Below are positions 39,597 to 59,143 of a DNA stretch of 64,000 bases, piece by piece. A model generated the notes under the pieces. The model did not search any database. It was not told the origin of the DNA and saw nothing but the letters and a program-made list of their open reading frames with translations. Numbering within the stretch: position 1 is the first letter of the stretch; each line of letters opens with the position of its first letter. This DNA comes from Echinicola marina (lineage in GTDB: Bacteria; Bacteroidota; Bacteroidia; Cytophagales; Cyclobacteriaceae): assembly GCF_020463795.1 (NCBI RefSeq), contig NZ_CP080025.1:5287001-5351000 (forward strand), in the 5' to 3' direction. Made by a program: the position numbers and the translations under genes.

Positions 39597-39990
39597 CTAC
39601 CCTAATTTTGATCACCCATTCTGATCTCATATATCCGCCAAAAGCCCTAAATCCTCCACTAAATAGTTCGAATTTGCTCTTACCCCCAACTTAACCCATT
39701 TATAACCAATTGACTTACAACTGATTGCAAGGGTTTTTATTTTTCTAGTCACAAATAAGTCACAAAGTTTATTTTTCTTTTAAAAAATTTTTCTCGCCTC
39801 TATAATTTTACTCAAAATTCCCCAATTTCTTCCCATCATATTCTCAAAAATCCAACTTATTTGAATTGTACATTTCCTATTTTGACACTAAAATTCTTGG
39901 CCATTTTTCGAATGAATAAACCTCAAATTCCCACACTAAATCCCTCTATATTTATTGTACTTTTTTAACATTGACACTTCCTCTAAAATA
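39597..39990. other. AT-rich gap between two accessory genes
   Basis: About 400 bases, strongly AT-rich, with no ORF or repeat that I can support. Confidence 0.45.
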
Positions 39991-39991
39991 A

Positions 39992-40015
39992 AAAGACAGC
40001 CTTTTAGCTGTCTTT
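39992..40015 (-). terminator. Terminator of the DUF6169-like gene
   Basis: Nine-bp stem AAAGACAGC / GCTGTCTTT, six-base loop; the reverse strand continues into a T-rich run. Confidence 0.8.
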
Positions 40016-40048
40016 CATCCTTACTTTTTACAAATAAATACACTAATA

Positions 40049-40552: not shown

Positions 40553-40697
40553 ACTTAATGTTTCTTTTTTCTTCGAGTTCTTTTAAATCTTTTCCCTCTC
40601 GAATATAAGAAACAATTGCTTTTTTATCTTCGACTCTTTTTTGAATGTAATCGAAAATTTTTGCGTTCTTTTCGGTTTTAACGATTACTTTTTCCAT
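40536..40697 (-). CDS. Small 53-residue protein upstream of and overlapping the DUF6169-like gene
   Basis: Starts at ATG 40697 and encodes MEKVIVKTEKNAKIFDYIQK and then a charged helical protein ending KRNIKFVKPL. It is very Lys/Glu-rich (predicted coiled helix) and resembles small antitoxin-like or partner proteins. The downstream TTG start lies inside its last codons, so translation is probably coupled. The pair has the shape of a toxin-antitoxin or immunity module, but no toxin fold is recognised. Confidence 0.6.
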   Translation of the reverse strand: MEKVIVKTEKNAKIFDYIQKRVEDKKAIVSYIREGKDLKELEEKRNIKFVKPL

Positions 40698-40980
40698 TGT
40701 GATTTACAATTTACTGGTTTTTCTGATAGCTAGTTTTTTAAACTACTGACCACCAACACTTTCATCAAGAAAAGTGCCACTCTTTTAATCTACAAATATA
40801 CCACCTATATTTGTTTTGTTTAAACAATTTATAAATCTTTTTATAAAATAACGAGTTAAAACTTAAAAAATAGCCCCATAAAACACAAATTTCATCCCCT
40901 TAAAATTCAGGTTTTATAGTGTTAAAAAAGGGTTTTTAGCTAAAATAAGAAAGATAATTCACTATTATTTTGAAACCCAT

Positions 40981-42940
40981 TCACCTCCAAACCACATTCT
41001 TCAACTTACTTGCAATTACAAACCAAGCTGTACTGGCAATACTTTTATAATTGGAAATCTCATAAGTCTCATCCCTTAAGACTGCATACCTATAACTCCC
41101 ATCCTCTTCTTCAAACAACTTAAGATCACTCATTATTTGATTGTATCTACTGTAATCCCTAGCTCTCCAATAAGCGAGGGCAACACCAAAGCTTCCTTCA
41201 AACCAAACTGTATCTACAGCACTTGGATAGCCCCATTAATCCGAATAAGGTATAGCCTTTTGCACCTGTTTCTACATCCTCAACATAATAATACTGCTCT
41301 AACCTAACCAAAAGGTTTTGACCTCTCCTAGCCTCACCAGAAGCAGCCAAAAACAAATATCCCCAACTGTTACAATCAAGGGCATCAGCAGTATCTTTCG
41401 TATTGGTCTGAGCATCACTTATACCTTGGTAAAACCTCTGGTTTGCCTCATCCCAAAGCTCATTTAGCATAAGGTTCTTAACTGTATTGGCTTTATGCTT
41501 ATAAACAGAATCCTTCAACACCTTTCCTGCCTGCTTAAGGGCAAAATAGCAATCAATGCAATGTTCTGTACTTATCCAACCAATGGAATAATTAGGATTG
41601 AACTCCTCTCCTTCATACCTCCCACTTCCTCCTGTAGGCAATCCTACTGGATTATTCTCTAAGGAAGCTATGTAATTAAGGGTATTAGAAATAGCTGTTA
41701 CCAACTCACTCCTATTTTCAGGGCTTCTTCTGTATTCCAAATAGAAACCCAAAGCATAAGCCACCCAAGCAATAGCCCCTACTCTAAAATAAGCATCATT
41801 GTATTGATAGTTTGGACTTGAATGGTTTGCACCAAAAGGAAAAGCACCATTGAGAAATTGAGCTACCAAGATTCCTTTTACAATCTTATCAGCCAATTCA
41901 AACTCCTTTAAACCAGTTGCACTTAATAAACTCAAAGCAGCATCATATAAATAGTTTCTATCCACAAAAGGAGAATTATAAACATCTTCCTCTTCAGGTG
42001 GTATTTCATAGCCTCTAGGTAAATCAGCTTTAATTGGTGTTTCCGCTAAATAGGTATCATCACTAGGTCTATAAAGCTTGTATTTAATCAAGCCTTCATT
42101 ATAGGTATAATCATAGCTAAACTGATTATTAAACGGAGCTAATATTTCAGCTTCTTTATAATCGGTATCAGTAGTTACAAACTTATGAATCTCCAAGTCT
42201 ATCCATTTATCAATTGTATTACCATCATTTACCCAAGTAGAAACCACAAAAGTATTGACCACATCATAAAGCTCTAAAACAATAATCCCACTCTGTAAGC
42301 TGCTATCAATGGTAAAAGAACCATCACTTAATACATTAACCGTCTGAATTAGATAATCAATATCAGACCTCCTATAATACCTTATTTAATGGGTTCCTGT
42401 CCCTACAGTTTGACCTACTACATTTCCAGTAATTTCACCTTTCCAAGCATTTGTTAAAGCCCCATAAGAAGGACTTGTAATTTCTATATATCCATTCAAC
42501 TCACTGTGATTGGCATTGATTCACTAATAAGCTTCCTTTATCAATTCTGCAGTTATCAATAAACCTTTCAGGAGCTGCAATATTGGTATAGTTGTTTTTG
42601 GTCTGGTACTGCTTTTTAAACTCCCTGACCTTATAAAGCTCATGCCTCCTTCATAAAAGGAATAATAGCCATACTGCTCAACCTTCAACTCAATCCAACT
42701 GCTTCCTAAATCAGTCACAGTAAAAAATAAAAACACATTTCCACCACTCGGATAAGGGCCACCACTGTCTATTTGGTTATTAATTTGAAACTGTCCATTC
42801 TGCTTATCAGGGTCTTTATCAAAAGGTGAAGATTCTATGATTACGTGCCTAAGATTATCAGGGACATCATCAATATTGATTCTGTTGCCTTCATTATCTG
42901 TAGCATAAAAATTATTTCTACCATCATCAATGGCCAACAT
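40981..42940 (-). pseudogene. Decayed surface protein with glycosidase-like helical domain
   Basis: One former gene, now in pieces. Read on the reverse strand from 42940: a beta-rich start (MLAIDDGRNNFYATDN), a frameshift near 42640 (GGMSF versus the expected ELYKVREFKKQYQTKNN), a 4-base insertion near 42510, an in-frame TAA at 42386-42388 where the neighbouring residues TGTH-IRYYRRSD join, and a shift in a GGGG run at 41231-41234. Between these lies a long helical region (42262-41198) with NYLYDAALSLLSATG, QFLNGAFPFGANHSS and GWISTEHCIDCYFALKQ, like an (alpha/alpha)6 glycosidase. The corrected last frame ends ASKLKNVVWR. The 5' end is missing, joined to a wecA fragment. Confidence 0.8.
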
Positions 42941-42949
42941 ATGGCAACA

Positions 42950-43037
42950 AATTTCTTTTGGACATTAACCTGATCACTATGGGAATACTAATCAAGGTTA
43001 TGATAAACGAAGCCAGTATGACAAAAATAATATCCAT
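42950..43037 (-). pseudogene. 5' fragment of a wecA-like gene (second copy)
   Basis: Reverse strand begins ATG at 43037: MDIIFVILASFIITLISIPI and continues VIRLMSKRNLL, almost identical to the start of the wecA-like gene at 63597. After about 29 codons homology stops and the sequence runs into the decayed surface-protein gene. The fragment cannot be functional. Confidence 0.85.
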
Positions 43038-43096
43038 CTAAACAATTAATTTCATGCAAATTATCCTTTAATATAACATAAAGCAAAAGCCCCGCC
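42961..43096 (+). repeat. Direct repeat, left copy (5' end of wecA-like gene plus upstream hairpin half)
   Basis: Matches 63521-63661 base for base over most of its length in the same orientation, with a few substitutions and one short indel after the shared AACAATTAA. It carries the wecA-like start region and the leader, and ends in GCCCCGCC, the first arm of the hairpin found complete at the right copy. Confidence 0.88.
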
Positions 43097-43103
43097 GTTT
43101 TAA

Positions 43104-43328
43104 ATAAAAAACCTTCCTTAAAAAAAAAAGCCACCTCAAATAAATGAGATGGCTTTTAATAATTAATGGCATTTGGCATTTGGCCTTAAGCTTTCGCCCT
43201 TCCTTCTTTCGGCTTACTTCTTTCAGCCTGGAGCCTTAGGCCTTATACTTTCGGCTTTAGACTTACTTCTTTCAGCCTTAGACCTTGAGCTTTAAGCTTT
43301 TCACTTTCGGCCTTAGACCTTCAGCTTT
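43104..43328. repeat. Hairpin plus degenerate CTTTCGGCCTTAGACC repeat tract
   Basis: Starts with a terminator-like hairpin (AGCCACCTCA / TGAGATGGCT, 43129-43154) that on the reverse strand is followed by a T-run, then about 170 bases of imperfect tandem words related to TTTCGGCCTTAGACCTT. The same two modules occur at about 58297-58410 and 62330-62440. Here it follows the last gene of the four-gene cassette and probably ends its transcript. Confidence 0.75.
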
Positions 43329-43592: not shown

Positions 43593-43814
43593 TTATTTAC
43601 CCGACACAAAACGGGAACCAGACTCCTCCAGCCCCATTACCTTTAGTAACCTGACCAAATCCACTTTGATAAAGCCCACTTCTGACTTTAGTTGATGCAT
43701 AGCTGCCTGAACAGCCCTGAAATCCCTGTGAAGATAGTGCAGGAAATAAGCGATGATGGAAAGGAGGGCTGATACCAGCCCTCCTAGCCCTACCAAATAG
43801 ATGCTTCCGTCCAT
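43593..43814 (-). CDS. Small membrane protein with coiled helix (73 aa)
   Basis: MDGSIYLVGLGGLVSALLSI starts a single or hairpin membrane segment, followed by a soluble amphipathic helix (HRDFRAVQAAMHQLKSEVGF) ending VSGK. Its start overlaps the end of the DUF5675 gene by 25 bases, a compression usual in phage and phage-derived operons. The sequence resembles accessory lysis or signal-anchor proteins, but I cannot name a family. Confidence 0.62.
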   Translation of the reverse strand: MDGSIYLVGLGGLVSALLSIIAYFLHYLHRDFRAVQAAMHQLKSEVGFIKVDLVRLLKVMGLEESGSRFVSGK

Positions 43815-44239
43815 GATCCCTCACCCATACACAAATTGAGGCCTTCATTTACATCACTATAAATTTCCAATAATACCTCATCTTCTGATTGGAATAATTC
43901 ATGGAGCCTGTCCCTAAGCTTTAGAAAAGCAAGTCTGGAAAAACTTCCCTTCCCCTCTTTTTCTATGCCGCTTACCGGACAGATATAATTGGATGGCACC
44001 TCTTCCTTCTTTAATGGAGAAAACTGGCTCACTAGCTTACCTTTCAGCTTGCATATGCCATAACTCCACCCGCCCATTTCTTCATAAAGGAGACCAAGTC
44101 GGTATATCCCTTCAGCAATACACGGTAAGGATGGGTGGGCCCTACTGGCCTCCAAAACCTGGCAAATTGACTTCCCTTGAAGGGAAATTTCACCATGGGT
44201 GGCCGTAGGCCAGTAACTCCGTTTCAATAAAAGCTTCAT
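43790..44239 (-). CDS. DUF5675 family protein
   Basis: 149 residues: MKLLLKRSYWPTATHGEISL, then CQVLEASR, AEGIYRLGLLYEEMGGWSYGI, and PVSGIEKEGKGSFSRLAFLKLRDRL. This pattern of T.G.L followed by a CYTLE-like strand and later I.H.G is the DUF5675 arrangement, found in phage or phage-derived lysis regions. It begins five bases after the stop of the 248-residue gene and overlaps the next gene, so it belongs to a compact operon. Biochemical role unknown; a wall-directed enzyme is possible. Confidence 0.68.
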   Translation of the reverse strand: MKLLLKRSYWPTATHGEISLQGKSICQVLEASRAHPSLPCIAEGIYRLGLLYEEMGGWSYGICKLKGKLVSQFSPLKKEEVPSNYICPVSGIEKEGKGSFSRLAFLKLRDRLHELFQSEDEVLLEIYSDVNEGLNLCMGEGSWTEASIW

Positions 44240-44243: not shown

Positions 44244-44990
44244 TTATACCACTTCGGTCAACAAAATCGAAGCAGCATTATGCGCTCCATTATTCAATGG
44301 ATACTCCTGCCCGTTGACCTCTTGGATAAACTCCACCCCTAGGACATATGCCTTATGGGATTCCGTTAAGCCTGATTTGTCCACACTCAGGGACAATCCC
44401 GTTACTGGATCTCCTACTGGAAGTAATCCAGAATCAACAGAAAAGGAGGATCTTTCCTTGCCGGTCAAATCCAAGCTCACCCCAGAGGCAAAGATTTTAA
44501 AATGTGTAGTGCCCTCAGGAATCATCAGATGGTCTGCAGGATTAAAATCTGAAAAACCCACCTCTAAAGATGCCGCAGCATCCGTCATGGAAAACTCCAT
44601 GTACAGCGTAGATGCCAACCTGGTCCTTCCGTTGATTTCAAGTCCGGTCAGCAAACTCCAATCCCCTTCAGTTACTTTACGGTCACCCCGCTTATTGACC
44701 GGATCAGTCTTTAAAATTTTCAGCATGGCACTGTAAATCCGATTATAAAGCCTGGAATCGCTGGCTTTCAACATCACATCCCTGAAAGTATCCTTTAGGA
44801 ATTTGGCCCCATCTGCTGCGGTGGCAAATTCCCTAAGGTTCTCTCGGGTACGTGCATACTTGGGATCACTCATGATCCGCGATTTGCTTACTCCACCTTT
44901 GGCACGGGCAAAATACCCATCCTTGGTCTTATAAAAAGACAGCGCTCCCACTGCCCCATTTAGCGTAATAATACTTGTTTGTTTAGCCAT
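44244..44990 (-). CDS. First gene of the four-gene cassette, unrecognised 248-aa protein
   Basis: Starts MAKQTSIITLNGAVGALSFY and continues KTKDGYFARAKGGVSKSRI, then TRENLREFATAADGAKFLKD and a basic, helical stretch (RIYSAMLKILKTDPVNKRGD). The second half is strand-rich and Ser/Gly-rich, without signal peptide or membrane segment. The N-terminus looks like a structural or nucleic-acid-binding protein of a phage-like element. It is first in the cassette, so its level sets that of the others. I do not recognise the family, and it may define an undescribed system. Confidence 0.62.
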   Translation of the reverse strand: MAKQTSIITLNGAVGALSFYKTKDGYFARAKGGVSKSRIMSDPKYARTRENLREFATAADGAKFLKDTFRDVMLKASDSRLYNRIYSAMLKILKTDPVNKRGDRKVTEGDWSLLTGLEINGRTRLASTLYMEFSMTDAAASLEVGFSDFNPADHLMIPEGTTHFKIFASGVSLDLTGKERSSFSVDSGLLPVGDPVTGLSLSVDKSGLTESHKAYVLGVEFIQEVNGQEYPLNNGAHNAASILLTEVV

Positions 44991-46047: not shown

Positions 46048-47598
46048 TTATGATGATACTTTGCTTTTGTTCCTGTTACTCACCAATACCTTCCCGTACC
46101 ACTCCACCCATCCGCCTACCTGGGCTTCCACCAATAGCAAAAAATCCTTTATTTTTTCTGTATCTTTTGGTCTTAATCCCATAAAAATTTCAGTCTTTAT
46201 TATTTTCATGGAATCCAGTACACTATGGTAATCATCCCATAATGACGACAAGGCCTCCTGCTTATTGGTTTGATGTATACGGGACAATAAATTCACCAGA
46301 TTATGGGGCAGATCCCAAAAGTCATCTGTTTCAGTTACCAGAATCTCATTGGACAAGGACACTAACCTGACAGCTTTCAACATGTATTTTTCAAGGCCTT
46401 CATGATAGCTATTAAGTACTTGCCATTGCTTACCTGCCACCCATTTCAGTAATTGCATACATAGAAGACCTTCTGAAAAAGATTGCCTTAATGACTGGAA
46501 TAAAACCAAATCAGTCTTATCCACATATTCAGTACTTTTCACCTTCCAACCACGCTCTTCTATATAACCTTCTACCAGTTGTCTTATCTCTGCCCAAACC
46601 TCAGCATCCATCTTTTGAAATGCTTCTTCAACCAAATCTTTCATGGCAGAATAGTAGGCCATCAACCGGGGAATAGGAGATTGGAAATCTTTCCCGCTGA
46701 TAGCACAATGGAGTCCTTTTCTTATTTTTTTCCAATAAATTCGTCCATCTCCGGAGGGTATTTGATACATGTATACATCTATGGAGGTAAGCAACATGAT
46801 CAGCTTTGCGGACCAGATAATCTTCTCCTGATCTCCCCGGGGAAAAAGGAAGGATACCATATATGCCAAATTCATCCTTTCTACCACTCGACTACTGTTA
46901 GCATCTACGAAAACAGAAAAAAAGCTACCCCAACTGCTCATAGATTGTTGTATTGCCACCCTATTACTATTTCTCATCAAGCGGAAACCTAAAATATTCA
47001 TCATCGTTTGATGAATCCTTAACTCTTTATTACCTCTAAGTTCATCATAACGTGAAATGGTCTTGGCAGATACGCCCACCAATTCTGCAAAGCGGTTCTT
47101 GGTAAGCCTGGGTTCCAGTTCTGCATGGGCCCCTCGTATGATCGAAATAGCACGCCCATATGGAATACCGTTCAAGCTGTTCCAAAAATCATCTTCTTTC
47201 TCAAATGCTGCATATAACTTCTCATATAACACCTTGAAATCCGGCATATCCCCTAAGATATTTTTTATTTCTGCAACCGGAACACTGGCTATCATGGTTT
47301 TTTCCAATGCCTCTATCGAAAATGGACTCATTTTATCCAGCTGGTAATTACTCCTGTCCAACACCAAACCGGGAGAAGAAAAAACCTTTTTCAATTTCCC
47401 ATGTAAGCTCATCCCGGCCATCCCCTTCATAACCAACAAAATATACATATCCTTCCTTCTTTCACTCCTGATCACCTCCATTTTTCGATAGGAATGGAAG
47501 GATATAAAATCCTGTACCAACAAATACCTTTCCCATGCGATCCACTGAAATGGATCAAGCATACTTTTTAGATCTCTCAAATAAGTGACTTTTTTCAT
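46048..47598 (-). CDS. Crp-like cyclic-nucleotide-fold regulator with a long C-terminal domain
   Basis: 516 residues. The first ~130 resemble the jelly-roll sensory domain of the Crp/Fnr group (SFHSYRKMEVIRSERRKDMYILLVMKG), and residues about 165-200 carry a helix-turn-helix (KNRFAELVGVSAKTISRYDEL). Unlike ordinary Crp proteins (about 200-230 aa), another ~300 mostly helical residues follow (Trp-rich, no membrane segment), which I cannot assign. It is divergent from the MauE gene with a 343-base shared region that contains the palindrome GGACAATGTCC at 47801. A regulator of the locus to its right is a reasonable inference. Confidence 0.68.
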   Translation of the reverse strand: MKKVTYLRDLKSMLDPFQWIAWERYLLVQDFISFHSYRKMEVIRSERRKDMYILLVMKGMAGMSLHGKLKKVFSSPGLVLDRSNYQLDKMSPFSIEALEKTMIASVPVAEIKNILGDMPDFKVLYEKLYAAFEKEDDFWNSLNGIPYGRAISIIRGAHAELEPRLTKNRFAELVGVSAKTISRYDELRGNKELRIHQTMMNILGFRLMRNSNRVAIQQSMSSWGSFFSVFVDANSSRVVERMNLAYMVSFLFPRGDQEKIIWSAKLIMLLTSIDVYMYQIPSGDGRIYWKKIRKGLHCAISGKDFQSPIPRLMAYYSAMKDLVEEAFQKMDAEVWAEIRQLVEGYIEERGWKVKSTEYVDKTDLVLFQSLRQSFSEGLLCMQLLKWVAGKQWQVLNSYHEGLEKYMLKAVRLVSLSNEILVTETDDFWDLPHNLVNLLSRIHQTNKQEALSSLWDDYHSVLDSMKIIKTEIFMGLRPKDTEKIKDFLLLVEAQVGGWVEWYGKVLVSNRNKSKVSS

Positions 47599-47941
47599 AT
47601 CCGTATTTTATTTCAAACAATAGCACCATCCCGGCCTTGCTTCCGGTCGTAGGTAAAAATCTATCCAAAAAACGCTGGAAAACTTCTTTACTTTCCCCCT
47701 ATATGATGGCTTCAGCCCCCTTGCTTATACTAAATCTAAATGATAACCTTAAATCATGTCAAGTTTTTCAACTATAAATTAAAAAAAGAATCATTTTTTC
47801 GGACAATGTCCATAATCGTATAAGACATTTCAATATTAAACACCCAACTATTTGACATTTAACTTATTACAAAATAAACTTTGATAAAAACATTAAAAAT
47901 ACAAACAACAAAATAGAAGATTTTCCCATTTGTACACCATC
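47599..47941. promoter_or_regulatory. Divergent promoter region between the regulator and MauE genes
   Basis: AT-rich 343 bases with the short palindrome GGACA-A-TGTCC at 47801-47811 and a second half-like site further right (AAGACATTTC). No exact TAnnTTTG box was found. It is the natural place for an operator of the Crp-like protein. Confidence 0.4.
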
Positions 47942-48346
47942 ATGAACTTAACCATTCGCCATATCATCAACTCTATTTTCATATTATTATGGACCTATAC
48001 AGGTCTGGAAAAGCTCATTAACTGGGATACCACTTATAACGCTTTCCATAACCAACCTTTTCCTTCCAAGCTGGCCGAAATTCTGGTCTATTCCATTCCT
48101 GTTACGGAACTGCTATTGGTACTGATATTACTTATTCCCCAAAGCAGGAAACCGGGACTTCTTCTATCTACCTTATTGATGACCGTATTTACCACATACA
48201 TTGGTTTGGTATGGATGGGCGCCTTCCCCAGAGTCCCCTGCACTTGTGCCGGATTTATCGAGTCCATGTCTTGGGAAGGACATTTTCTGTTTAACATGGC
48301 ATTGATAGTATTGGGGGTAGTTGGAGTATTGAGATCTGAGTCTTGA
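47942..48346 (+). CDS. MauE/DoxX family membrane protein
   Basis: 134 residues, four membrane segments (INSIFILLWTYTGLEKL; IPVTELLLVLILLIPQ; GLLLSTLLMTVFTTYIG; LFNMALIVLGVVGVL) and a two-cysteine loop RVPCTCAGFIESM between segments 3 and 4. This fits MauE/DoxX proteins that pass electrons for disulfide bond formation, with the CxC pair outside. The TlpA-like protein of the same locus could be its redox partner. The ATG at 47942 is taken; an upstream TTG is less likely. Confidence 0.8.
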   Translation: MNLTIRHIINSIFILLWTYTGLEKLINWDTTYNAFHNQPFPSKLAEILVYSIPVTELLLVLILLIPQSRKPGLLLSTLLMTVFTTYIGLVWMGAFPRVPCTCAGFIESMSWEGHFLFNMALIVLGVVGVLRSES

Positions 48347-49363
48347 ATCGTGAGTCTTGAGATTCTGGAAAATAGTTGAGTCTGGAGGCTCAAGTTTAAT
48401 CGTCCCGCAGTACAACTGACGGGACAACGGAGTGAGAAATAGTTTTGCTACTTTGCCACTTACCCCGAAGGGGTAAAATCTACGTAGACGAAATCGCTAA
48501 GGCAAATCCACACGACCCTGAAGGGGTCGAACAAAGTCCCATAAAGGAAACTGCATGGATATAGGTAGGCATGAGTATTGAGAGTCTGGAGACTCAATCT
48601 TAATCGTCCCGCAGCTCAGCTAATGAGACAACGGAGAGATGGGACAACAGCGCCTAACATTTAGAGAATGTAACAAACAGGATGTCAATTGTAAAAAAAA
48701 GGCTCCCCGACGGGGAGCAATTTAGAAAGCCCCGGGCAAGCCTGTGCCGACCGGGGTAAAAGGAACACAAAGGTTCATGGCATTAGCAGTCAAAACAGAT
48801 TGCAGCGAATTCCCTTTTCCGCTAATGCCGAAGACCGTTAATGGTGGATTTCAAAACATGTCATCTCTAGGCATCACAGGATCTCTTCCAGTAACATAAT
48901 ACCTGAGAAGTCGAATCGTAACCGTCATTGCCTGCCTGCAGCAGGTAGGCGAAGGATCCGCCACAGCGGAGACTGCGGCAATCCCGTCCTTCGAAGGTGA
49001 GATTGACCTTCACCGTGGCATGTGTCCTCACAGTCCAACTCAATAAATGTAAATTAGTCCGGTCTGTGGGAACACAGACCGCGGGGAAGAGACATAACTT
49101 GAAAAAAAATAGTTGAGTCAGAGACTCAAATTTAATCGTCCCGCAGCTCAGCTGACGGGACAACGGAGTTACTGGCATCATTGCGGATAATCAAAAAACA
49201 TAATATAAAAACACTGCCCGATTCCATGGAGCCGGTATACTAGGTGGAATCAGTACAGGCTTCTGGCAGTAGCAGGAGAATGCCGAAAATCCTGAAAAAG
49301 AGTAGGCAAAAAGCAACCATAAACGTTAAGGGATTTTGATCGTTAAAAATCCCATTTTCAAAC
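48347..49363. repeat. Repeat-filled kilobase between MauE and DUF6520 genes
   Basis: Contains three copies of the palindromic unit AATCGTCCCGCAGCTCAGCTGACGGGAC (about 48378-48433, 48582-48638, 49113-49170), a REP-like copy B (48922-49012), and a GC-rich hairpin GGCTCCCC-GA-CGGGGAGC at about 48700 with an A-run before it. Frames here are judged spurious. Confidence 0.75.
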
Positions 49364-49636
49364 ATGAAAAAGCTAATAAAGAATATGCCACTGCTGGCCT
49401 TTGTGCTCGCGGCGGCAAGTGCACTGGCATTCAATATGCCTCAGGCAAATGAACCGACTAAAGTATTCACTTGGAATGACCAGACCATGGAATATGATGA
49501 GATTACCCATCTTGAAATTGGAGAGGATTATGTTTGCAACCCCTCTTCTGAAGAATGCAGGGTGGAATTCTCAAACGATAATCCAGATACTGGCGTCAAG
49601 AATGTATTGACCAATGGGGAATTTACAGAGCTTTAG
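49364..49636 (+). CDS. DUF6520 family secreted peptide-like protein
   Basis: 90 residues with a signal peptide (MKKLIKNMPLLAFVLAAASA) followed by a short mature part with a cysteine pair (DYVCNPSSEECRVEF) and an acidic tail. The pattern fits DUF6520, small exported proteins of Bacteroidota. The two cysteines four-to-six residues apart in the mature part fit a disulfide, which the nearby MauE and TlpA proteins could handle. It ends against a bidirectional terminator shared with SusD. Confidence 0.72.
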   Translation: MKKLIKNMPLLAFVLAAASALAFNMPQANEPTKVFTWNDQTMEYDEITHLEIGEDYVCNPSSEECRVEFSNDNPDTGVKNVLTNGEFTEL

Positions 49637-49659
49637 CCTAAAGAATTAAGTATTAAGGT

Positions 49660-49688
49660 AAAGCCAAGGGAAAGTTTCCCTTGGCTTT
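49660..49688. terminator. Bidirectional terminator between DUF6520 and SusD genes
   Basis: Near-perfect 13-bp stem AAAGCCAAGGGAA / TTCCCTTGGCTTT with a tiny loop, between convergent stops. Confidence 0.85.
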
Positions 49689-49698
49689 CTATGCTAGC

Positions 49699-51063
49699 TC
49701 ACCGTGGGTTTTGTTTTACCCCACTTCTTCTTATTTCATCATCAGGAATCGGAAAAACATATTTTAGATCATTGGGCGCTAGGCTGATCACTTCCCCATT
49801 CATTTCTCTAAATAATGTCTCCTTTAAATCCACTTCTTTATTTAACCTCCTCAAATCAGTCCATCGCGTACCTCTACCCACCAGTTCTTTACGCCGTTCC
49901 TCTAAAATGGCCTCAAATAGTTCTTTATCCTCCAAAGAGGAATAATCTGGCAAGGCTTCAGGGATATAACGCTTATTCAGTAAATCCATCAGCAAGGATA
50001 ATGCACCTGTCCTATTCCCTTTTCTCACCATGCATTCCGCTGCTGTCAATAGGACTTCTGGCACCGTAATACCGGAAAACCAAACATAATTTCCGGAATA
50101 GCTTCCTACTAACCGGTATCTTCCATCATCGGTGACATCAAAAAAGGCCTTTTTGCGAAGATCACCTTCTTTATACTGATCTATTAATTCCGGAGAAATG
50201 CTCACTTCGGAATTGGTCATAAATGAATAGGTCAATGAGGTACTATGAAAAATCACCTCTTCATTGAAAACATCAAATGGCCTTCGTTCATCCACATCAA
50301 TATAGTTATAATCCATTATATCGGATTTCAGGGCCAAAGCTGATAGGGCATTTTCTAGGGCAAGATCAAAGTCCCCCATTTCTAAAAACACCTTGGACAA
50401 AAGCGAAAGTGCAGCCACTTGCGTAGGCCTTGTGGGAATGGCAACAGAAAGGGGTAGTAACTCCTTTGCTTTCACCAAATCCCCAATCACCTTATTATAG
50501 GATTCCTGCAAGCTTGCCCTTGAAGGCGATTCATTGACATCCGGAGAATCCTTTAAGATAATTCCTAGGGTATCTATTCTGGAGGCCTGATCATACGCAG
50601 GCGCATATACTTGCAAAAGTTGATAGTAGGCAATTGCCCTCAGGAACAAGGCACTTCCTTTTATTTCATTATACTGGGATGTTTCAGCACCCTTATAATC
50701 CCTTAGTTGTTCCAAAACCACATTGGCATAAAAGACCTGTTCATAGGTATAATTCCAATCATAATTAGGCATTCCCTCATAAACCTCATCAGCCCATAGA
50801 TAGGCATTTCTCTCTACAGGCTGACTAAGGTTCAACAGCCCTTCATCAGTAATAACAAAGTCATCTGCTGCTATCTGTGGGATACAGGGGCTAGTATTAA
50901 ACAGCTGGACACTATTATCAAGTAATGCCTGCATATCCTCCAATGTATTGGGGACTACTATATCCTTATTGGGCTTCTCCTCTAAAAAGGATTCGCATGA
51001 AGTCAATAAATGAATGATGCTGATGATCATGATGCTGAGTATGGGGTTGATTTTATGTTTCAT
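49699..51063 (-). CDS. RagB/SusD family nutrient uptake lipoprotein
   Basis: 454 residues, lipoprotein signal (SIIHLLTSCESFLEE; lipid on Cys23). The N-terminal EKPNKDIVVPNTLEDMQALL, the TPR-like helices (QYNEIKGSALFLRAIAYYQL) and C-terminal LFEAILEERRKELVGRGTRW motif are SusD hallmarks; the last is the family signature. SusD caps SusC and delivers glycans or peptides into it. Unusually its SusC partner is 940 bases upstream, separated by repeats rather than adjacent. Substrate unknown. Confidence 0.92.
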   Translation of the reverse strand: MKHKINPILSIMIISIIHLLTSCESFLEEKPNKDIVVPNTLEDMQALLDNSVQLFNTSPCIPQIAADDFVITDEGLLNLSQPVERNAYLWADEVYEGMPNYDWNYTYEQVFYANVVLEQLRDYKGAETSQYNEIKGSALFLRAIAYYQLLQVYAPAYDQASRIDTLGIILKDSPDVNESPSRASLQESYNKVIGDLVKAKELLPLSVAIPTRPTQVAALSLLSKVFLEMGDFDLALENALSALALKSDIMDYNYIDVDERRPFDVFNEEVIFHSTSLTYSFMTNSEVSISPELIDQYKEGDLRKKAFFDVTDDGRYRLVGSYSGNYVWFSGITVPEVLLTAAECMVRKGNRTGALSLLMDLLNKRYIPEALPDYSSLEDKELFEAILEERRKELVGRGTRWTDLRRLNKEVDLKETLFREMNGEVISLAPNDLKYVFPIPDDEIRRSGVKQNPR

Positions 51064-52002
51064 ATTTATAGTATTTTGTCGTTAGTATTGAGCCTGCCTG
51101 GCGTCAGACAGGTCTTGAGACTTGTTTTCGGTAGCGAGGTCGTATCATATCCGTCATTGCTTCTCCCGGTGAGCCGGGAGAAGCAATCTCGTATTTTCCC
51201 CTTCCTCCTGCCCTACAGGCTGGCTACTCGCTAAAAACAGTCACCGACTGCTTTCTTTACGCTTGTCCCTCCCCTAAATCCCTCCCGAATCAAGTTCGGG
51301 ACAGGCTCTGTGGGGGACTTCTTGATATCGTAACCAAAATCGGTTCTTCCCCCTTCAGGGGGAGGTTAGGTGGGGGGAAATTCTTTCTTCTTTGCTCTTT
51401 TCTCTTTTTTCCAACTTGCTACTGCCATCTAGCTACTTGCTACTAAAAAGAGTCCCCGTTTCCCGTCTGGAAACATTTCCCGCTGTTTATTAAGATGATG
51501 CATGATCACATATGAAGAAAGTACGCGGTAAGGGACTCGGTTTAGATGTTAGACATAAGACGCTAGATAAAAGACTTGTTCACGGCAGCGAGTTCATTTG
51601 GTCTCCGTCATTGCGAAGGAGGACGGGAGTACGACTGTGGCAATCTCGTTTTCTAAAAAGGAGACTGCCACGTCGCTAGCTCCTCGCCTGCCTTTGCCGT
51701 CAGGCAGGCAGTGACAGAAGCTGTGACAATCCCGTACATCGAAGATGAGATTGCCTACCTGAGGCAGGTAAACTTCACTTCGATTCTCTTCGTTCGTATG
51801 ACGGAGAAACAGATATTCTCATCTCCGAAATCAATCTTTCCTCCTTCTTCTTTGCTCTTTATTCTTTTCTCTATAATTCTTACTACTATCATCTAGCTAC
51901 TTACTACTCAATTTAAGCTCCGCCCACCAAGATTCGCCTTTAATAATCAATCCGGTTTAAATTAAACATGAATACGGCGGACGGAGCTATGTCTTTAATG
52001 TG
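51064..52002. repeat. Repeat-filled gap between SusC and SusD genes
   Basis: Holds REP-like copies C (51151-51196, with CTCCCGGTGAGCCGGGAG) and D (51605-51780), an arm of the long inverted repeat (51203-51262) and the CTTGATATCGTAACC / CCCTTCAGGGGG module. No gene seen. SusC-SusD pairs are normally almost adjacent, so this spacer is abnormal. Confidence 0.75.
51216..51250 (+). repeat. Inverted repeat, left arm
   Basis: 35 bases whose exact reverse complement is at 57146-57180; similarity, with mismatches, extends to about 60 bases. The two arms bracket the SusC and TlpA genes. Confidence 0.9.
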
Positions 52003-55000
52003 CTAGAAGTCTATCTTCACGCCCAAGGCCATACTCCTCAATGGCTTGGCGGTCCTGAAATCTGGATCCAAGGGATCATCCTTCGCGGCTTTCCAGAGTA
52101 CACCCAGGTTATTGATATAGGAATAAATCTCTACCCGCCTGAAGGGTAGCTTTTTGACCATGCTATTGTCCATGGTATAGGCCAATCGAATATCCTGCAA
52201 GCGGATATGATCCCCTTTTTCTATCAATACAGCACTGTTTCTATAGAATAAATCCCTATAAGCATCCCTGCTTTCCGGCATGGAAGGCACCTGGGTCAGC
52301 ATTTCATCACCGGGGCTTTGCCAGCGCTTGGAAAAATCCCCATGCCCCCCTTCTCCACTTAGTACAGTCCCATAAACCACGGAATTTCTTCGGTAATAAT
52401 ACCCTGCCCGAAATACCGTATTAAATGACAGCGACAGCCCTTTCCATAAAAAGGTATTCCTGATAGAACCAAAATATCGGGGCCTGGCCGGACCATGGTA
52501 ATTAATATTTTCTATCGTGGCACTGTTCACGATTTCCCTATACTCTGTACTGGGCTCACCATCCACATAGCCCATAGGATCACCAGTATCCGGATCCAGT
52601 CCTGCCCAGTCATAACTATAGATGCCAAATAATGGCCGGCCACTCAGGGGAAAATATTCCCCTCCACTCCCACTGCTTCCGAAGTTCAGGTAATCACTTA
52701 CCGTGGCCTTTAGCTCATAATCCGTCACTTTTTCCGACACATGGCTTAGGAGCAGGGAGCTTCTCCACTGTATGGCCTTATCCAAATTCAGCGTATGCAA
52801 CTCGAAATCAAAACCTTTGGTTTGGGTATTGGCATTATTTCCTTTGAATTGCACGATACCAGAAGAGGGAGCATAAGGGCTCAGCCCTATCAAGTCAAGG
52901 CCGCTCTTGGTATAATATTCCAATACCGCCGATAGTCGGCCTTCCCATAATTCTAGGTCCATACCTAAATTCATCATTCGGATGCGTTCCCACCGAAGTT
53001 CCTCATTGGGGGGATTGATGATACGGGCATAAGGGTAGCCACTGACATAGGAAGTGCCCATCATCCTTGCCGTGGTCAAGGCAGAAAGGGATTTGTCGAT
53101 ATTGCCATTATAGCCATAGGTGGCCCTTAATTTCATAAATGATCCGCCCCCATTTCCATAAAAATCCTCTTCACTGATGATCCAGGCCAAACCAGTGGAC
53201 CATAACGGGACACTTTTTTGATTAGTGGCCACCCCAAAAAGGTTAGAAGCATCCCTTCTGGCACTTGCGGTCAGCATATATTTTTTCCGGTAGGTATATC
53301 CTGCATTGACATACCCCGATACAAAACGGTCTACCGTCCCCGACTGGCCTTCGGCATTGATGATCCTACCGGTCAGGGCTGGTCGATAAAACCGGGGAAA
53401 CCGACTGATATAATCTACAGGCTGACTGGTGCCCAACTGATCATTATAACCGTAAAACCTGGTACTATATCCTGCTCCTTGGTTATCCCTGACCTCTCCT
53501 CCTATAAGCAGGTTAATGGCATGGCCTCCTTGCCATTCTTGCTTCCAGGTCAACTGCCCTCGAAGGGTATGGCTGGCCATCTGGGCATTCCTGATATCCA
53601 AGATCCCTCCTTTGGGTACAGGATAAGTGAGGTTCCCCTCATCATCGATCTGGGTATAGGTATTGACCATATTGCGGACAAAATAGGATTCCACCGGATA
53701 GTGTATATTCCTCTCGACCCTGTTTTCCCAATATTGGTACTGTAAGGAAGCATGGAGGCCTTTGAATACCTTATAATCCAATCCCAGATTGAATCGTATA
53801 TCGTTGCTTTCTTCCAGATCATTCATTAGCCCCCTATCCTTGAGGGGCACAAATGTCCAATCCACTAAGCCCATTCCCTCCAGGCCATCAATATACCCAT
53901 CCCTAAAATTGCGGGTAGTCCTTAAGGGTCTGCCGTTTTCATCAGCCAGACTGGCATAGGGGTAAATGTCCTGATTACTTTCAAACTCCAGGGAGGCCAT
54001 TCCCTCATTTCGGAGCCTTTCCCTGTACTTGCTCAGGTAAATGCCTACACTCGCTTTTAACTTGTTCTTAAGAAGGTGATGCTCGCTTTTGGCAGACAGG
54101 GTGATTCTCCTGTCCTTATTTCCTATGAGCGATTGCCGGTTTTCATCCCATCCCATGCTCAAATAATAATTTTGGTGCTTGCTTCCACCACGGACATTGA
54201 GGGCATACTGCTGGTTAATGGCCCTCTGGTAATAGTATTTACCCACATCATGGCGCACATCATGGCTACCAAGATCAGAAAGCACATCTTCCAATTCCCC
54301 CTCGGAAATCTCTCCATCACGATTCTTGATCATCCACTCTACAGCAGGTGTCAGCGGTACTTGGTTGGGGCTGCTCTCACTGGAATTATAAAATCCTCGA
54401 TCAAAGAGCATTCGCTCTACATCTATAAATTCTTCTGGGCTCATTGTAGGCCTGTAAAACAAATCCGCCGGTTCCTTAATGGTAATATTTGAATTGAGGG
54501 AAACGGTGGGTGCTTGGTCCCTACTGCCCTTTTTGGTGGTGATGACAATGACTCCATTTCCTGTCCTGGCCCCCCAGATGGATGCGGCGGCAGCATCACG
54601 AAGTACCGAAATGCTCTCCACATCATTGGGATTGATCCCTTCCAACGACCCATCATAGGGGAAATTATCCAAAATGATCAAGGGACTGGTATCGGACATC
54701 AAGGTACTCCTCCCCCTGATACTAATGGGTTCCCGGGCTTCATTGCCGTTTCTGTTAAAAACCAAACCCGGGGTAATGCCATCCAACCTATCGAGAATGG
54801 AAGTACTCACCCTGCGATTGAGCAGTTCTTCATCCACTTGCACAAATGATCCGGTCACCCTTTCCTTGGGCAGTTCCTGATAACCTGTGGAAACCACCTC
54901 CACCCCCTGCATACTAAAATCCGATGGCTGTAATCCTACTTTTAGTGTCCTTTCCAGGGGCACGGTTACCAGTTCTTCCTTTTTGGTATAGCCTAGAAAG

Positions 55001-55221
55001 CTGAAGACAAGCGCATAATCCCCAGGGGCAAGCTCTAGGGAGAAGTTTCCCGAATGATCGGTAACCGTTCCCACCGCAGTTCCTTTGATAAGGACCGTTC
55101 CTCCTGAGATGGGCTCATGGCTAGCAGCATCGTACAGCTCCCCTCTCAAGGTATGCTCCTGCGCCTCTAATGTCCCCATACAGACGAAAATCACGTATAT
55201 TCCTGTAAAAAATCTTTTCAT
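52003..55221 (-). CDS. SusC/RagA family TonB-linked outer-membrane protein
   Basis: 1,072 residues: signal peptide, a CarboxypepD_reg-like domain (about 22-105, TLRGELYDAASHEPISGGTV, DYALVFSFLGY), a plug (about 115-235, with the GVEVVSTGYQELPKERVTGS motif, SIRGRSTL and the SusC signature RDAAAASIWGARTGNGVIVI), then a long beta barrel ending VALGVKIDF. It imports oligomers or peptides in concert with SusD and a TonB protein, such as those at 32-34 kb. Its partner SusD is on the same strand but not adjacent. Confidence 0.95.
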   Translation of the reverse strand: MKRFFTGIYVIFVCMGTLEAQEHTLRGELYDAASHEPISGGTVLIKGTAVGTVTDHSGNFSLELAPGDYALVFSFLGYTKKEELVTVPLERTLKVGLQPSDFSMQGVEVVSTGYQELPKERVTGSFVQVDEELLNRRVSTSILDRLDGITPGLVFNRNGNEAREPISIRGRSTLMSDTSPLIILDNFPYDGSLEGINPNDVESISVLRDAAAASIWGARTGNGVIVITTKKGSRDQAPTVSLNSNITIKEPADLFYRPTMSPEEFIDVERMLFDRGFYNSSESSPNQVPLTPAVEWMIKNRDGEISEGELEDVLSDLGSHDVRHDVGKYYYQRAINQQYALNVRGGSKHQNYYLSMGWDENRQSLIGNKDRRITLSAKSEHHLLKNKLKASVGIYLSKYRERLRNEGMASLEFESNQDIYPYASLADENGRPLRTTRNFRDGYIDGLEGMGLVDWTFVPLKDRGLMNDLEESNDIRFNLGLDYKVFKGLHASLQYQYWENRVERNIHYPVESYFVRNMVNTYTQIDDEGNLTYPVPKGGILDIRNAQMASHTLRGQLTWKQEWQGGHAINLLIGGEVRDNQGAGYSTRFYGYNDQLGTSQPVDYISRFPRFYRPALTGRIINAEGQSGTVDRFVSGYVNAGYTYRKKYMLTASARRDASNLFGVATNQKSVPLWSTGLAWIISEEDFYGNGGGSFMKLRATYGYNGNIDKSLSALTTARMMGTSYVSGYPYARIINPPNEELRWERIRMMNLGMDLELWEGRLSAVLEYYTKSGLDLIGLSPYAPSSGIVQFKGNNANTQTKGFDFELHTLNLDKAIQWRSSLLLSHVSEKVTDYELKATVSDYLNFGSSGSGGEYFPLSGRPLFGIYSYDWAGLDPDTGDPMGYVDGEPSTEYREIVNSATIENINYHGPARPRYFGSIRNTFLWKGLSLSFNTVFRAGYYYRRNSVVYGTVLSGEGGHGDFSKRWQSPGDEMLTQVPSMPESRDAYRDLFYRNSAVLIEKGDHIRLQDIRLAYTMDNSMVKKLPFRRVEIYSYINNLGVLWKAAKDDPLDPDFRTAKPLRSMALGVKIDF

Positions 55222-55246
55222 GATTGATATATTTTAGAATAAATGA

Positions 55247-56602
55247 TCAGTCCTGATGCTTTCGGATCACCAATACCTCTATCGGTACCTCCACCTCTTT
55301 GAGGACTAATCCCTTTGCCTCCAAGGCCTTTTTTAATTCCTCTACCTTTCCCAAGCTGCATTCTATATCCAGTGCTATGGAATAGTCCATTCCTGTCCTG
55401 TCCACTATAGGTCTAGGCGACTTTTGGTAGAAATAGGCATTCAGCTGCAGTACAAAGCGGTCCAGTGGATAACCCTTCATGCTCAGGCCATATGGCTTGA
55501 AGTCAAAGGATTTCTCCGTGGAGCCATACCTGGGCAGTGCTTGGTCTTTTAGCATAATGGCATAGACAGGGCGCTCGCGCACTTCGATCTGGGCGCTGTA
55601 CTGCGGGAAATAACGCCTTAAATCTTCCTGCATAAGCTCAAATTTCCTCCCTAACATCGATGGTGGCAGTACCAGCTCATAGCCATAGACATTTCCCTCG
55701 GCCATCCAGGCCAGATAATCCGCCCCGCTCAGGTCAGTATTGAAGCGACTCCTATCCACTCCTTCATAGATGATCCTGTTTTTTCCAAAATAGAGATTGG
55801 GGTCTCCTGCATAAAAAGCAATCCTGTAGAGCTTCTCCAATACGGTATTGGTAAAAAAGATGCGGCCACCATGGCTATCCTTAAACTCCACCATCCTTCC
55901 CGGCAATCCAGGAATATATCCCGTAAGGGCAGATTGGAAAAGCAGATTTTTATCCTCAATCTGAGCATTACCCCCAATGAAAAGCTGCTCGTCAAAAAAC
56001 TCGTTTTCTTTATCCGCTTTCAATTGGAATTCCTGCGTTTTATCCTCCACCAGGGCCTGGATCTTTTTCCGTGTGATATTTTCCCCACCGGTGATGGCGG
56101 ATACCATCCCTTCCCTACCAATGATCACATAATGCGGCAAAGTCTTATGGGGAAACATATTCCTTAGTAGCTTATCCGATACCGCTATGGGCATGGATAT
56201 TCCCTTTAGACTAGACAGCTTATCAAATAACTTATTTACCTTCTCCTGATCCTGATAGGTCACCGGAAGGACCATAAGGTCTTCCTCAAATTCCTGCTGT
56301 AGACTGTCTAGCTTCGGAAAGCCCTTCACACAAGGCGCACACCAAGTGGCCCAGAAGTCCAGGATCAGGAGTTTGCCCCGGTAATCGGAGAGCTGCACTT
56401 TCCCTTCGGGATGGTTGAGGACATTTTCGATCAGCAGGTCGGGTAATTGGTCCCCTACTTTAAGTTCGCTTAGCTGTGAGGGAGCGGCATTACTCACGGC
56501 CGCTCCTCCAGTAAAGGTGTCAGCAACTTTCGTCTGTGGAAATAAATCACTTCCAAAAAGGCATAAGTATGCCAGGAAGCATGTGAATGTTGTTTTTTTC
56601 AT
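55247..56602 (-). CDS. TlpA-like thioredoxin-fold protein with C-terminal DUF3738 domain
   Basis: 451 residues from the ATG at 56602 (a longer start is possible but less likely, because the signal MKKTTFTCFLAYLCLFGS begins there). Domain 1 (about 45-190) is a TlpA/ResA-like redoxin: LNHPEGKVQLSDYRGKLLIL, the active site WATWCAPC (about residue 85-89) and FPHKTLPHYVIIG. Domain 2 (about 225-451) has the TIGR03435/DUF3738 pattern (PIVDRTGMDYSIALDI, LEAKGLVLKEVEVPIEVLVI). Its gene lies 26 bases upstream of susC and on the same strand. A periplasmic or outer-membrane redox role in the same locus is likely. Confidence 0.82.
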   Translation of the reverse strand: MKKTTFTCFLAYLCLFGSDLFPQTKVADTFTGGAAVSNAAPSQLSELKVGDQLPDLLIENVLNHPEGKVQLSDYRGKLLILDFWATWCAPCVKGFPKLDSLQQEFEEDLMVLPVTYQDQEKVNKLFDKLSSLKGISMPIAVSDKLLRNMFPHKTLPHYVIIGREGMVSAITGGENITRKKIQALVEDKTQEFQLKADKENEFFDEQLFIGGNAQIEDKNLLFQSALTGYIPGLPGRMVEFKDSHGGRIFFTNTVLEKLYRIAFYAGDPNLYFGKNRIIYEGVDRSRFNTDLSGADYLAWMAEGNVYGYELVLPPSMLGRKFELMQEDLRRYFPQYSAQIEVRERPVYAIMLKDQALPRYGSTEKSFDFKPYGLSMKGYPLDRFVLQLNAYFYQKSPRPIVDRTGMDYSIALDIECSLGKVEELKKALEAKGLVLKEVEVPIEVLVIRKHQD

Positions 56603-58620: not shown

Positions 58621-58827
58621 ATGAAAATATTGTTGGATATAAAAGACGATAAGGCAGCCTTTATTATGGAACTACTCAATAATTTCAAGTTCGTAAAGGC
58701 CAAACCACTTACCCCATACAAAGCTGAAGTACTAGAAGGATTAAAAGAAGCTATTGAAGAAGTGAATCTTATTAAAACCAATAAGATAAAAGCACAACCT
58801 CTTGACAAGTTTCTTGATGAGCTATAA
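58621..58827 (+). CDS. Antitoxin of a RelE/ParE-type module
   Basis: 68 residues, helix-rich and charged: MKILLDIKDDKAAFIMELLN, then LTPYKAEVLEGLKEAIEEVNL and an acidic-basic C-terminal tail. The position just upstream of a RelE-like toxin and the 11-base overlap mark it as the antitoxin, which would bind the toxin by the C-terminal segment and its own promoter by the N-terminal part. No DNA-binding fold is firmly recognised. Confidence 0.78.
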   Translation: MKILLDIKDDKAAFIMELLNNFKFVKAKPLTPYKAEVLEGLKEAIEEVNLIKTNKIKAQPLDKFLDEL

Positions 58828-59143
58828 AGTGGATACGGTTACAGCTTTCCGAAAAGCTGTTAAAAAACTCATTAAAAAATATCCATCCCTTAAAAACGAA
58901 TTGGCAGAACTTGGAAAGCAGCTTTCCAATAATCCTACTACAGGTACTTCTCTTGGAAATAATTGTTACAAAATCCGAATGGCTATCGCTTCCAAAGGAA
59001 AAGTCAAGTCTGGTGGGGCCAGAATAATTACCCATTTTTATGTGGCTGACAATACTGTTTTTCTTCTTTCCATTTACGACAAGTCAGATCAAGAAAATAT
59101 TTCAGACAATCAAATCAAAGAACTACTGAAACTCATTCAATAA
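58817..59143 (+). CDS. RelE/ParE-superfamily toxin
   Basis: 108 residues from the ATG at 58817: MSYKVDTVTAFRKAVKKLIK, then YPSLKNELAELGKQLSNNPT, NNCYKIRMAIASKGKVKSGG, ARIITHFYVADNTVFLLSIYDK. These elements (TxxFxKxxKxLxKKYP, GNxxYKIRxAI, GGxRIIxY) are those of RelE/HigB-like mRNA-cleaving or ParE-like toxins. Start overlaps the antitoxin stop by 11 bases. Which of the subfamilies it belongs to is not decided here. Confidence 0.85.
   Translation: MSYKVDTVTAFRKAVKKLIKKYPSLKNELAELGKQLSNNPTTGTSLGNNCYKIRMAIASKGKVKSGGARIITHFYVADNTVFLLSIYDKSDQENISDNQIKELLKLIQ

Follow-up and report, generated by a model that had tools for sequence, protein, structure and literature searches.

A two-block locus joining a DUF6520 peptide to a SusC/SusD transporter in Echinicola marina and its relatives

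What does a SusC/SusD-type transporter import, or recognize, at a locus where no glycan enzyme is found beside it? The question is raised by a locus at 46048-56602 of a 64,000-nucleotide stretch of the Echinicola marina genome (family Cyclobacteriaceae; contig NZ_CP080025.1, positions 5,287,001 to 5,351,000), here called the window. A first-pass annotation made from the sequence alone listed six genes there, encoding a large Crp-like regulator, a MauE/DoxX-like membrane protein, a small DUF6520 protein, SusD, SusC, and a TlpA-type thioredoxin, and all six were found in place using Pfam and TIGR04056. Comparison of its copies indicates that the locus is made of two linkage blocks, with the border within the DUF6520 gene: a constant block unites Crp, MauE, and the signal peptide of DUF6520, and an exchangeable one unites mature DUF6520, SusD, SusC, and TlpA. 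At slightly less than even odds (about 45%), we read the locus as a two-part, exchangeable peptide/SusCD specificity system with thiol-redox handling, pherotype-like in broad form. The exchange of cassettes was missed by the first-pass annotation, as were a terpene synthase domain in the regulator and the mobile-element neighbors of many copies.

That annotation had staked its proposal on repeated co-occurrence across genomes, and the unit does recur, in an invariant orientation. With profiles built from the first loci, we collected 72 stretches carrying DUF6520 and MauE. Their gene order is fixed (TlpA-SusC-SusD> <DUF6520<MauE | Crp>), with several copies per genome. MauE lies upstream of DUF6520 on the same strand in 72/72, SusD is convergent with DUF6520 in 71/71, SusC and SusD are co-oriented in all 70 loci carrying both, TlpA shares the orientation of SusC in 57/57, Crp diverges in 53/53, and the terpene synthase is on the Crp side in 42/42. 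All seven parts are present in 38 of the 72 loci. Because the loci had been chosen partly through matches to Crp-terpene synthase, the fair test of co-occurrence is a draw across the phylum led by DUF6520, in which 28 of 345 genomes matched at 42 places. We took the 36 places outside the window's genome: MauE, SusC, and SusD were all present at 31, and none of the three at the other five (L171, L181, and L192-L194; L and G numbers denote our loci and genomes). No MauE, DUF6520, Crp, terpene synthase, or TlpA gene was found in 20 control stretches at fixed coordinates; unconnected SusC or SusD genes do occur in some of them, and a fragment of DUF5675 in one. Twelve further SusD places were hand-picked from the genome list; nine lacked all five of these parts, L227 and L229 had TlpA only, and L226 was a DUF6520 locus with TlpA and without MauE or Crp. 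The co-occurrence of DUF6520, MauE, and SusCD is far beyond chance.

The border between the blocks can be seen in pairs of loci. L138, from the window's genome, and L140 are alike in Crp (95% identity), terpene synthase (98%), MauE (92%), and signal peptide (100%) and unlike in mature DUF6520 (38%), SusD (45%), SusC (52%), and TlpA (31%). L138 and L158 show the reverse: mature DUF6520, SusD, and SusC are each 94% identical and TlpA 93%, with Crp at 51%, terpene synthase at 53%, and MauE at 69%. The pairs L151/L152 and L153/L155 are patterned like L138/L140, and L130/L187 like L138/L158; other close pairs in the same comparison had both blocks alike or both unlike. At the DNA level, identity within the DUF6520 gene falls from 88-98% over the first 60 bases to 50-63% over the next 60 in L138/L140, L151/L152, L153/L155, and L044/L047, and the aligned blocks run to approximately bases 79, 80, 95, and 70 of the called open reading frame (ORF), respectively (the called start of the L153 gene is probably ~9 codons too early). 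L130/L187 show the opposite, with identity rising from ~40% upstream to 88% in the initial 60 bases and 93-100% in the ~1,000 after that. At the far border, TlpA residues 1-160 of L151/L152 (signal and thioredoxin domain) are 70-98% identical per 40-residue step, and the rest 25-38%; the window and E. arenosa TlpA proteins, compared by eye, have the same constant N-terminal and variable C-terminal parts. In L153/L155 and L044/L047, identity returns near or upstream of the TlpA start, and the far border of L138/L140 lies beyond the compared stretch. As read from these breakpoints, the second block is shown to be exchanged as one cassette, with the crossover near the signal/mature junction.

The same division appears in nearest-relative agreement. 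Among 45 loci (49 less 4 near-duplicates), the nearest relative by mature DUF6520 was also the nearest by SusD in 27, by TlpA in 24, and by SusC in 21, compared to 5 for MauE, 6 for Crp, and 6 for DUF6520's own signal peptide. Within the constant block, agreement was 20/45 for Crp-MauE, 17/45 for signal-MauE, and 12/45 for Crp-signal. In a second version with 53 loci (57 less the same 4), agreement was 26 for mature-SusD, 20 for signal-MauE, and 6 for signal-SusD, and the Mantel r values were 0.61, 0.49, and 0.14, respectively. The pattern persists in the 1,320 pairs alike in neither block (mature-SusD, 0.39; mature-MauE, 0.24; signal-MauE, 0.38; signal-SusD, 0.03). In discordant pairs, where MauE is alike and SusD unlike (12 pairs) or the reverse (4 pairs), mature DUF6520 follows SusD in 16/16. 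The 16 are not independent of each other, as several share loci.

Parts that fit one another are expected to be exchanged together and generic parts to stay. On this view, SusD, SusC, and the TlpA C-terminal domain seem to make up a specificity set with mature DUF6520. We infer that the exchanged parts must fit, so that SusCD-TlpA recognizes mature DUF6520 or a complex containing it. MauE, the Crp-terpene synthase pair, and the signal peptide would be generic and serve any cassette, joined in L151/L152 by the thioredoxin domain of TlpA. The layout, with a constant leader, a variable mature peptide, and a co-inherited receptor, is that of a pherotype locus with SusD/SusC/TlpA in the receptor's place. 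In the portion of the source available, the pneumococcal CSP-ComD and BIP-BlpH pherotypes likewise have a conserved leader, a variable peptide, and a receptor that varies along with it (PMC7595303). Signaling at the present locus is an analogy, and the locus differs in having a Sec-type signal, a cysteine-pair peptide, and SusCD and TlpA instead of a two-component receptor.

Very different cassettes between alike flanks could also arise if SusC and SusD were targets of phages or bacteriocins and cassettes were swapped for escape, with DUF6520 and the TlpA domain as traveling partners. A precedent comes from Bacteroides fragilis, where, as far as the accessible part of that report goes, shufflon-type inversions vary SusC/SusD genes (PMC4747536). 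Escape offers no obvious reason for a crossover inside DUF6520 or for exchange of a periplasmic TlpA domain, however, and the cassette ends lack long inverted repeats (longest exact match, 13 nucleotides; median, 9). We consider this explanation improbable. Inversion by a recombinase, as in a SusC/SusD shufflon, was ruled against on the same lack of long inverted repeats; recombinase genes were not searched for.

The genes of the window locus are listed in Table 1. The window DUF6520 scores 35.0 bits against PF20130 (cut-off, 25.4), and its MauE 106 bits against PF07291 (cut-off, 27), with the CxC motif present. A SusC/RagA signature with an adjoining SusD lipoprotein makes the pair a SusCD transporter, as in polysaccharide utilization loci. 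The earlier remark that no glycosidase is present stands: neither the six core genes nor the scanned window neighbors gave a Pfam match to a glycoside hydrolase, lyase, or other glycan enzyme. The locus thus lacks the enzymes of a polysaccharide utilization locus, from which it differs also in its Crp regulator, conserved cysteine-pair peptide, and MauE.

Table 1. Coordinates of the locus features and of two frequent neighbors, as window positions
Feature	Position	Strand	Basis or remark
Crp-like regulator fused to class I terpene-synthase-like domain	46048..47598	-	516 aa; PF19086 at residues 306-455
Crp part of regulator (cNMP-binding-type domain and helix-turn-helix), residues 1-205	46984..47598	-	Alignment to relatives with Pfam matches
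Terpene-synthase-like domain of regulator, residues 206-516, metal motifs lost	46051..46983	-	Motif alignment, dN/dS
MauE/DoxX-like membrane thiol protein with CxC	47930..48346	+	PF07291, 2.3e-30; probable ATG start 47942
DUF6520 small protein with signal peptide, 90 aa, Cys58 and Cys65	49364..49636	+	PF20130, 1.9e-8
DUF6520 signal peptide (end placed by eye), constant block	49364..49432	+	Block comparisons
DUF6520 mature part, exchangeable block	49433..49633	+	Block comparisons
SusD/RagB-type lipoprotein, exchangeable block	49699..51063	-	PF14322 (SusD-like_3), 2.6e-32; PF07980, 4.2e-15
SusC/RagA TonB-dependent transporter, exchangeable block	52003..55221	-	TIGR04056, 3.3e-147; SusC Plug Pfam, 1.3e-13
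TlpA: signal peptide and thioredoxin domain (CAPC), then variable C-terminal domain	55247..56602	-	C-terminal domain DUF3738-like in relatives
DUF5675 gene, frequent Crp-side neighbor, outside core	43790-44239	-	Pfam; recurrence
248-aa protein gene, frequent Crp-side neighbor, outside core	44244-44990	-	No Pfam or PHROG match

The thiol parts that the first-pass annotation singled out are conserved. Mature DUF6520 has two cysteines in 72/72 sequences, and MauE has CxC in 70/72 by alignment; of the two exceptions, L044 carries the motif beyond the aligned stretch. TlpA has CxxC in 44/57 and CxxS in the other 13, and a second TlpA type carries a GCxxC motif. These cysteines fit a predicted role in thiol handling. 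The label TlpA-DUF3738 given to the window protein holds for a relative and not for the protein itself: Pfam detects DUF3738 in the E. arenosa TlpA (5.7e-5) and, slightly below the cut-off, in that of L055 (2.3e-4), and leaves it undetected in the window copy. An AlphaFold model of TlpA, built from two sequences, had a pLDDT (predicted local distance difference test score) of 36. A DoxX-like MauE with a thioredoxin-like partner is also a feature of the mau cluster, where MauD is that partner; the present core genes differ in lacking methylamine dehydrogenase and in that the thioredoxin partner is partly exchanged with SusCD.

A core of this kind, with thiol proteins and no glycosidase, would also suit nutritional uptake of the RagAB kind, in which foreign disulfide peptides or proteins enter via SusCD, TlpA and MauE reduce them, and mature DUF6520 is a matching subunit or chaperone of SusC-SusD-TlpA. 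In the part of the literature source at hand, RagAB of Porphyromonas gingivalis is a SusCD-type peptide importer whose alleles are exchanged horizontally (PMC11817032); the present locus resembles it in the SusC/SusD-type pair and the exchange, and peptide import here is predicted. Unlike RagAB, it has a small protein with a cysteine pair and a domain of TlpA in the exchanged block, and MauE and the Crp-terpene synthase regulator in the constant one. Peptidase genes also occur outside the family. Among five non-family loci listed gene by gene, L159, L164, L166, and L182 have a gene of 780-890 aa after SusD, encoding a Met-zincin in L159 and an S9 peptidase in L164, the two scanned; in these four loci MauE is fused to, or adjoins, an unannotated part of about 350 aa. 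L190 has a TlpA-type gene instead. No peptidase gene belongs to the core of the family version, however, and nutritional uptake leaves unexplained both the terpene synthase and why the mature part is exchanged while the signal peptide stays with MauE. We regard it as a serious contender, if a doubtful one.

The regulator bears on a different part of the problem. The first-pass annotation called it Crp-like, a character recognized only through its relatives, and did not recognize what the extra half was. The N terminus of the window protein has no Pfam match; cNMP_binding scores above cut-off in the relatives L044, L049, and L058, and matches of helix-turn-helix models to the relatives are weak and below cut-off. 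The oversized half is a class I terpene synthase domain, matched by PF19086 (terpene synthase family 2, C-terminal domain) at 3.8e-6 and 27.2 bits (cut-off, 23.7). The fused relative L048 matches the same model at 1.2e-31, and L049 has Crp (189 aa) and terpene synthase (314 aa; PF19086, 5.8e-26) as two genes. Pfam does not detect PF19086 in four Echinicola copies (L044-L047), yet the proteins still align over their whole length; among named relatives, identity to the window regulator is 63% in E. salinicaeni and 40% in E. arenosa. An AlphaFold model from three sequences (mean pLDDT, 55.7) is not confident over the Crp part and is trusted only for most of residues 245-500. Against PDB, the C-terminal half of the model matched mostly sesquiterpene synthases, including T-muurolol, cucumene, germacradien-4-ol, and pentalenene synthases (probability, 1.00; target-normalized template modeling score, TM(target), up to 0.71). 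This half is thus predicted to have the class I alpha-helical fold.

As a catalyst, the window copy is predicted to be inactive, with IDVYM in place of DDxxD and NEILVTETD in place of NDLxSxxKE (NSE), the two metal motifs of an active class I terpene synthase. Both motifs are kept in 35 of 45 terpene synthase sequences from the loci and lost in 8, the window copy and seven other Echinicola copies; of the remaining two, the L049 protein retains NSE and part of the first motif, and the L150 sequence is fragmentary. When 44 of these proteins were placed in a tree, the 18 encoded by separate genes all fell to the same side of a single branch (100/99). The 8 that lost the motifs grouped together (100/100) with a long stem (2.16), and the program warned about long branches. 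Across five window-clade pairs, the ratio of nonsynonymous to synonymous substitution rates (dN/dS) spans 0.10-0.35 for the dead domain, compared with 0.14-0.29 for the Crp part, dS being saturated in some; the dead domain exceeds the Crp part in two pairs (L046/L047 and L044/L046). Given these low values, the domain is probably kept by purifying selection, perhaps somewhat relaxed, and a probable account is that the terpene synthase of one clade turned into a pseudoenzyme.

The association of terpene synthase with the locus is close within the family. When 148 family genomes were searched with PF19086, 18 of them had matches, at 24 places in all. Of these places, 22 adjoin components of the DUF6520/SusCD locus, with the terpene synthase fused to or next to Crp; the remaining two are in G012, on a 6.4-kb contig without another component, and in G121, with no component near. 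The locus could then be a terpenoid biosynthesis cluster that carries a SusCD importer by chance, as the motifs retained in most copies would allow. Arguing against this, we noticed no further biosynthetic enzyme recurring in the neighborhoods (most clusters were read by eye rather than scanned), the window clade dropped the metal motifs yet retained the locus, and 11 of the 72 loci have Crp and no terpene synthase. We consider this highly improbable. A terpene cyclase adjoining a cNMP-binding-fold protein is also found in Family 2 encapsulin operons, which, in the section of the paper available, have terpene cyclase cargo and cNMP-binding shell proteins (PMC8346489). The present cNMP-fold protein is instead a Crp-like regulator, which many loci have as a fusion with the synthase, and no encapsulin shell genes were noticed at the loci, although no search aimed at them was made.

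A shared operator in the Crp-MauE gap was considered and rejected, as palindromes there did not outnumber those of shuffled sequence (the best was present in 6 loci, equal to the shuffle maximum of 6). Certain palindromes upstream of TlpA, A/G-rich or GGCAT-N4-ATGCC, did exceed the shuffles (7-8 loci versus ≤2), and these may be terminators or reflect common descent.

We propose, with the qualifications below, that the constant part comprises the Crp-type regulator with its terpene synthase partner (fused or adjacent), MauE, and the DUF6520 export signal and that the exchangeable part comprises mature DUF6520, SusD, SusC, and the TlpA recognition domain (the whole TlpA in some pairs). DUF6520 would be exported, its two cysteines paired by MauE, and the product handled in the periplasm by TlpA; SusCD would then bind or recapture DUF6520 from the same or kin cells, as in a pherotype. 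The Crp-terpene synthase protein would control the divergent promoters. With an intact synthase, the likely cue would be what the enzyme makes or uses (a terpene or prenyl diphosphate), and in the window copy the dead domain may be retained as a sensor, scaffold, or dimerization part. In its fullest form, this would be self-recognition in a Gram-negative bacterium: matched SusCD-TlpA takes up an exported disulfide peptide, relatives swap types as single cassettes, and the regulator, a transcription factor fused to a terpene synthase, is under the control of a terpene or isoprenoid (in the window clade, of a ligand bound by the dead domain). We hold this fuller version to be rather unlikely. 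The first-pass suggestion of a disulfide-peptide/importer system is partly supported, in that mature DUF6520 is inherited with SusD, SusC, and TlpA, which fits a pairing of peptide and importer.

Several observations weigh against a two-part specificity system. Co-exchange fits a structural subunit as well as it fits a ligand, and DUF6520 may stay in the periplasm, since its signal is only Sec-type. The roles in export, binding, import, and regulation are predictions. TlpA with CxxS lacks the second active-site cysteine (13/57), and no palindrome common to both promoter regions (Crp-MauE and upstream of TlpA) was found. At the 31 of the 36 phylum-draw places that lie outside the family, Crp is present at one (L190) and terpene synthase at none, so neither is essential to the peptide-SusCD part. 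The blocks are also not fully separate: TlpA agrees in nearest relative with Crp, signal peptide, and MauE in 10-11/45 loci, about twice as often as SusD or SusC, and mature DUF6520 is not independent of the constant block (Mantel r, 0.31 with MauE and 0.27 with the signal peptide). A plain-distance test over 43 loci was weak, with rho of 0.06-0.15 between mature DUF6520 and every partner and partial P values of 0.04 for SusC, 0.02 for TlpA, 0.27 for SusD, 0.15 for MauE, and 0.08 for Crp. Coevolution by simple protein distance is thus weak and not decisive; nearest-relative agreement, the Mantel correlations, and breakpoint mapping are clearer.

The surroundings of the loci suggest one more explanation, in which the unit is cargo of a conjugative element through which a host or an element recognizes mates or excludes relatives. 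RteC, TraG/TraI-type, relaxase, or coupling-protein genes occur in 38 of 97 stretches and 0 of 20 controls, and the sole RteC gene of G003 and that of G010 each adjoin the Crp-terpene synthase gene. Such genes were not seen in the other 59 of the 97, the window included (the 97 include a few lacking the locus). None of the four RteC genes of the window's genome adjoins a copy, the nearest lying ~11 kb from the DUF6520 gene of L060, and L227, a SusD locus without DUF6520, also has a coupling-protein gene. A conjugative function is, on balance, very improbable.

A further 19 stretches, the window among them, have the 248-aa protein or DUF5675 instead of conjugation genes, and these two genes recur on the Crp side at many loci; all three copies of the 248-aa gene in the window's genome lie no more than about 9 kb from such a locus. 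E. salinicaeni aligns to the window at 89% identity up to 7 bases past the transfer-messenger RNA (tmRNA; 34302-34709), where the alignment breaks, resuming at 43236. The break so near the tmRNA suggests that the segment after it may be an integration hotspot. Past the break, the DUF5675/248-aa part is 91% identical in DNA, and Crp-terpene synthase/MauE only 74%. The segment from 34302 to 43236 holds, after the tmRNA, genes for a TOTE-type primase-helicase (34997-38092), a Schlafen/AlbA_2 protein (38378-39451), and a tail-fiber-like protein (41198-42262). Plasmid records gave no match for the regulator, MauE, or DUF6520; 132 matched SusC, all at <60% identity and at about 25% in the ten matches listed. 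Phage records gave no match for the 248-aa protein.

Other observations concern the copies and the surrounding DNA. The window's genome has seven DUF6520 loci, of which L051 and L060 lack MauE; five of its six MauE matches are inside DUF6520 loci, and the sixth sits in a 369-aa frame. The same genome has 72 SusD matches. G158 has six loci with DUF6520 and MauE (L130, L144, L145, and L221-L223). L059 and L147, at 0.62 and 5.44 Mb in the window's genome, are 100% identical in DUF6520, MauE, Crp, and SusD, 96% in SusC, and 98% in TlpA. The 3.1-kb contig of L050 (1-3096, G019) has three DUF6520-like genes by profile and a further Pfam fragment, and the DUF6520 match of L055 (8235-8510) is followed by a similar small ORF (9849-10133). 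L053 and L060 lie beside genes resembling, by eye, an extracytoplasmic function sigma factor and FecR, and L060 has a GntR-type protein (PF00392) near DUF6520. Within the window locus, the intergenic stretches 48347-49363 and 51064-52002 contain parts of repeat families, and a family of the GGCAATCCCGTC type occurs in the locus gaps and beyond (45166, 48977, 51639, 51725, and 56747); no convincing gene was noticed in these two gaps, whose ORFs were not themselves scanned. Some gap stretches are more conserved between copies than the genes are. Elsewhere in the window, a RelE-type toxin gene (PF06296) comes after a small gene, and the two probably make up a toxin-antitoxin pair (58621-59143); there are also a 421-aa protein with five DUF7151 stretches (60834-62099) and an ORF of 2,375 aa (23984-31111).

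In the full-text literature searched, with most subscription papers outside reach, we found no paper on DUF6520 and, among the papers listed, no description of the unit, whether under combinations of MauE, TlpA, and SusD or under terpene synthase with cyclic nucleotide binding, SusC, Bacteroidota, or pseudoenzyme. The locus is a variant of the SusCD-centered kind, made of known families and undescribed as far as those listings show. DUF6520 gains from it a set of partners and a testable role. Terpene synthases are joined here to a Crp-like regulator, one clade having a probable pseudoenzyme, and ligand-like and receptor-like parts are exchanged, by sequence comparison, with a border at the signal peptide. 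What glycosidase-free SusCD loci recognize becomes directly testable with cognate and non-cognate cassettes.

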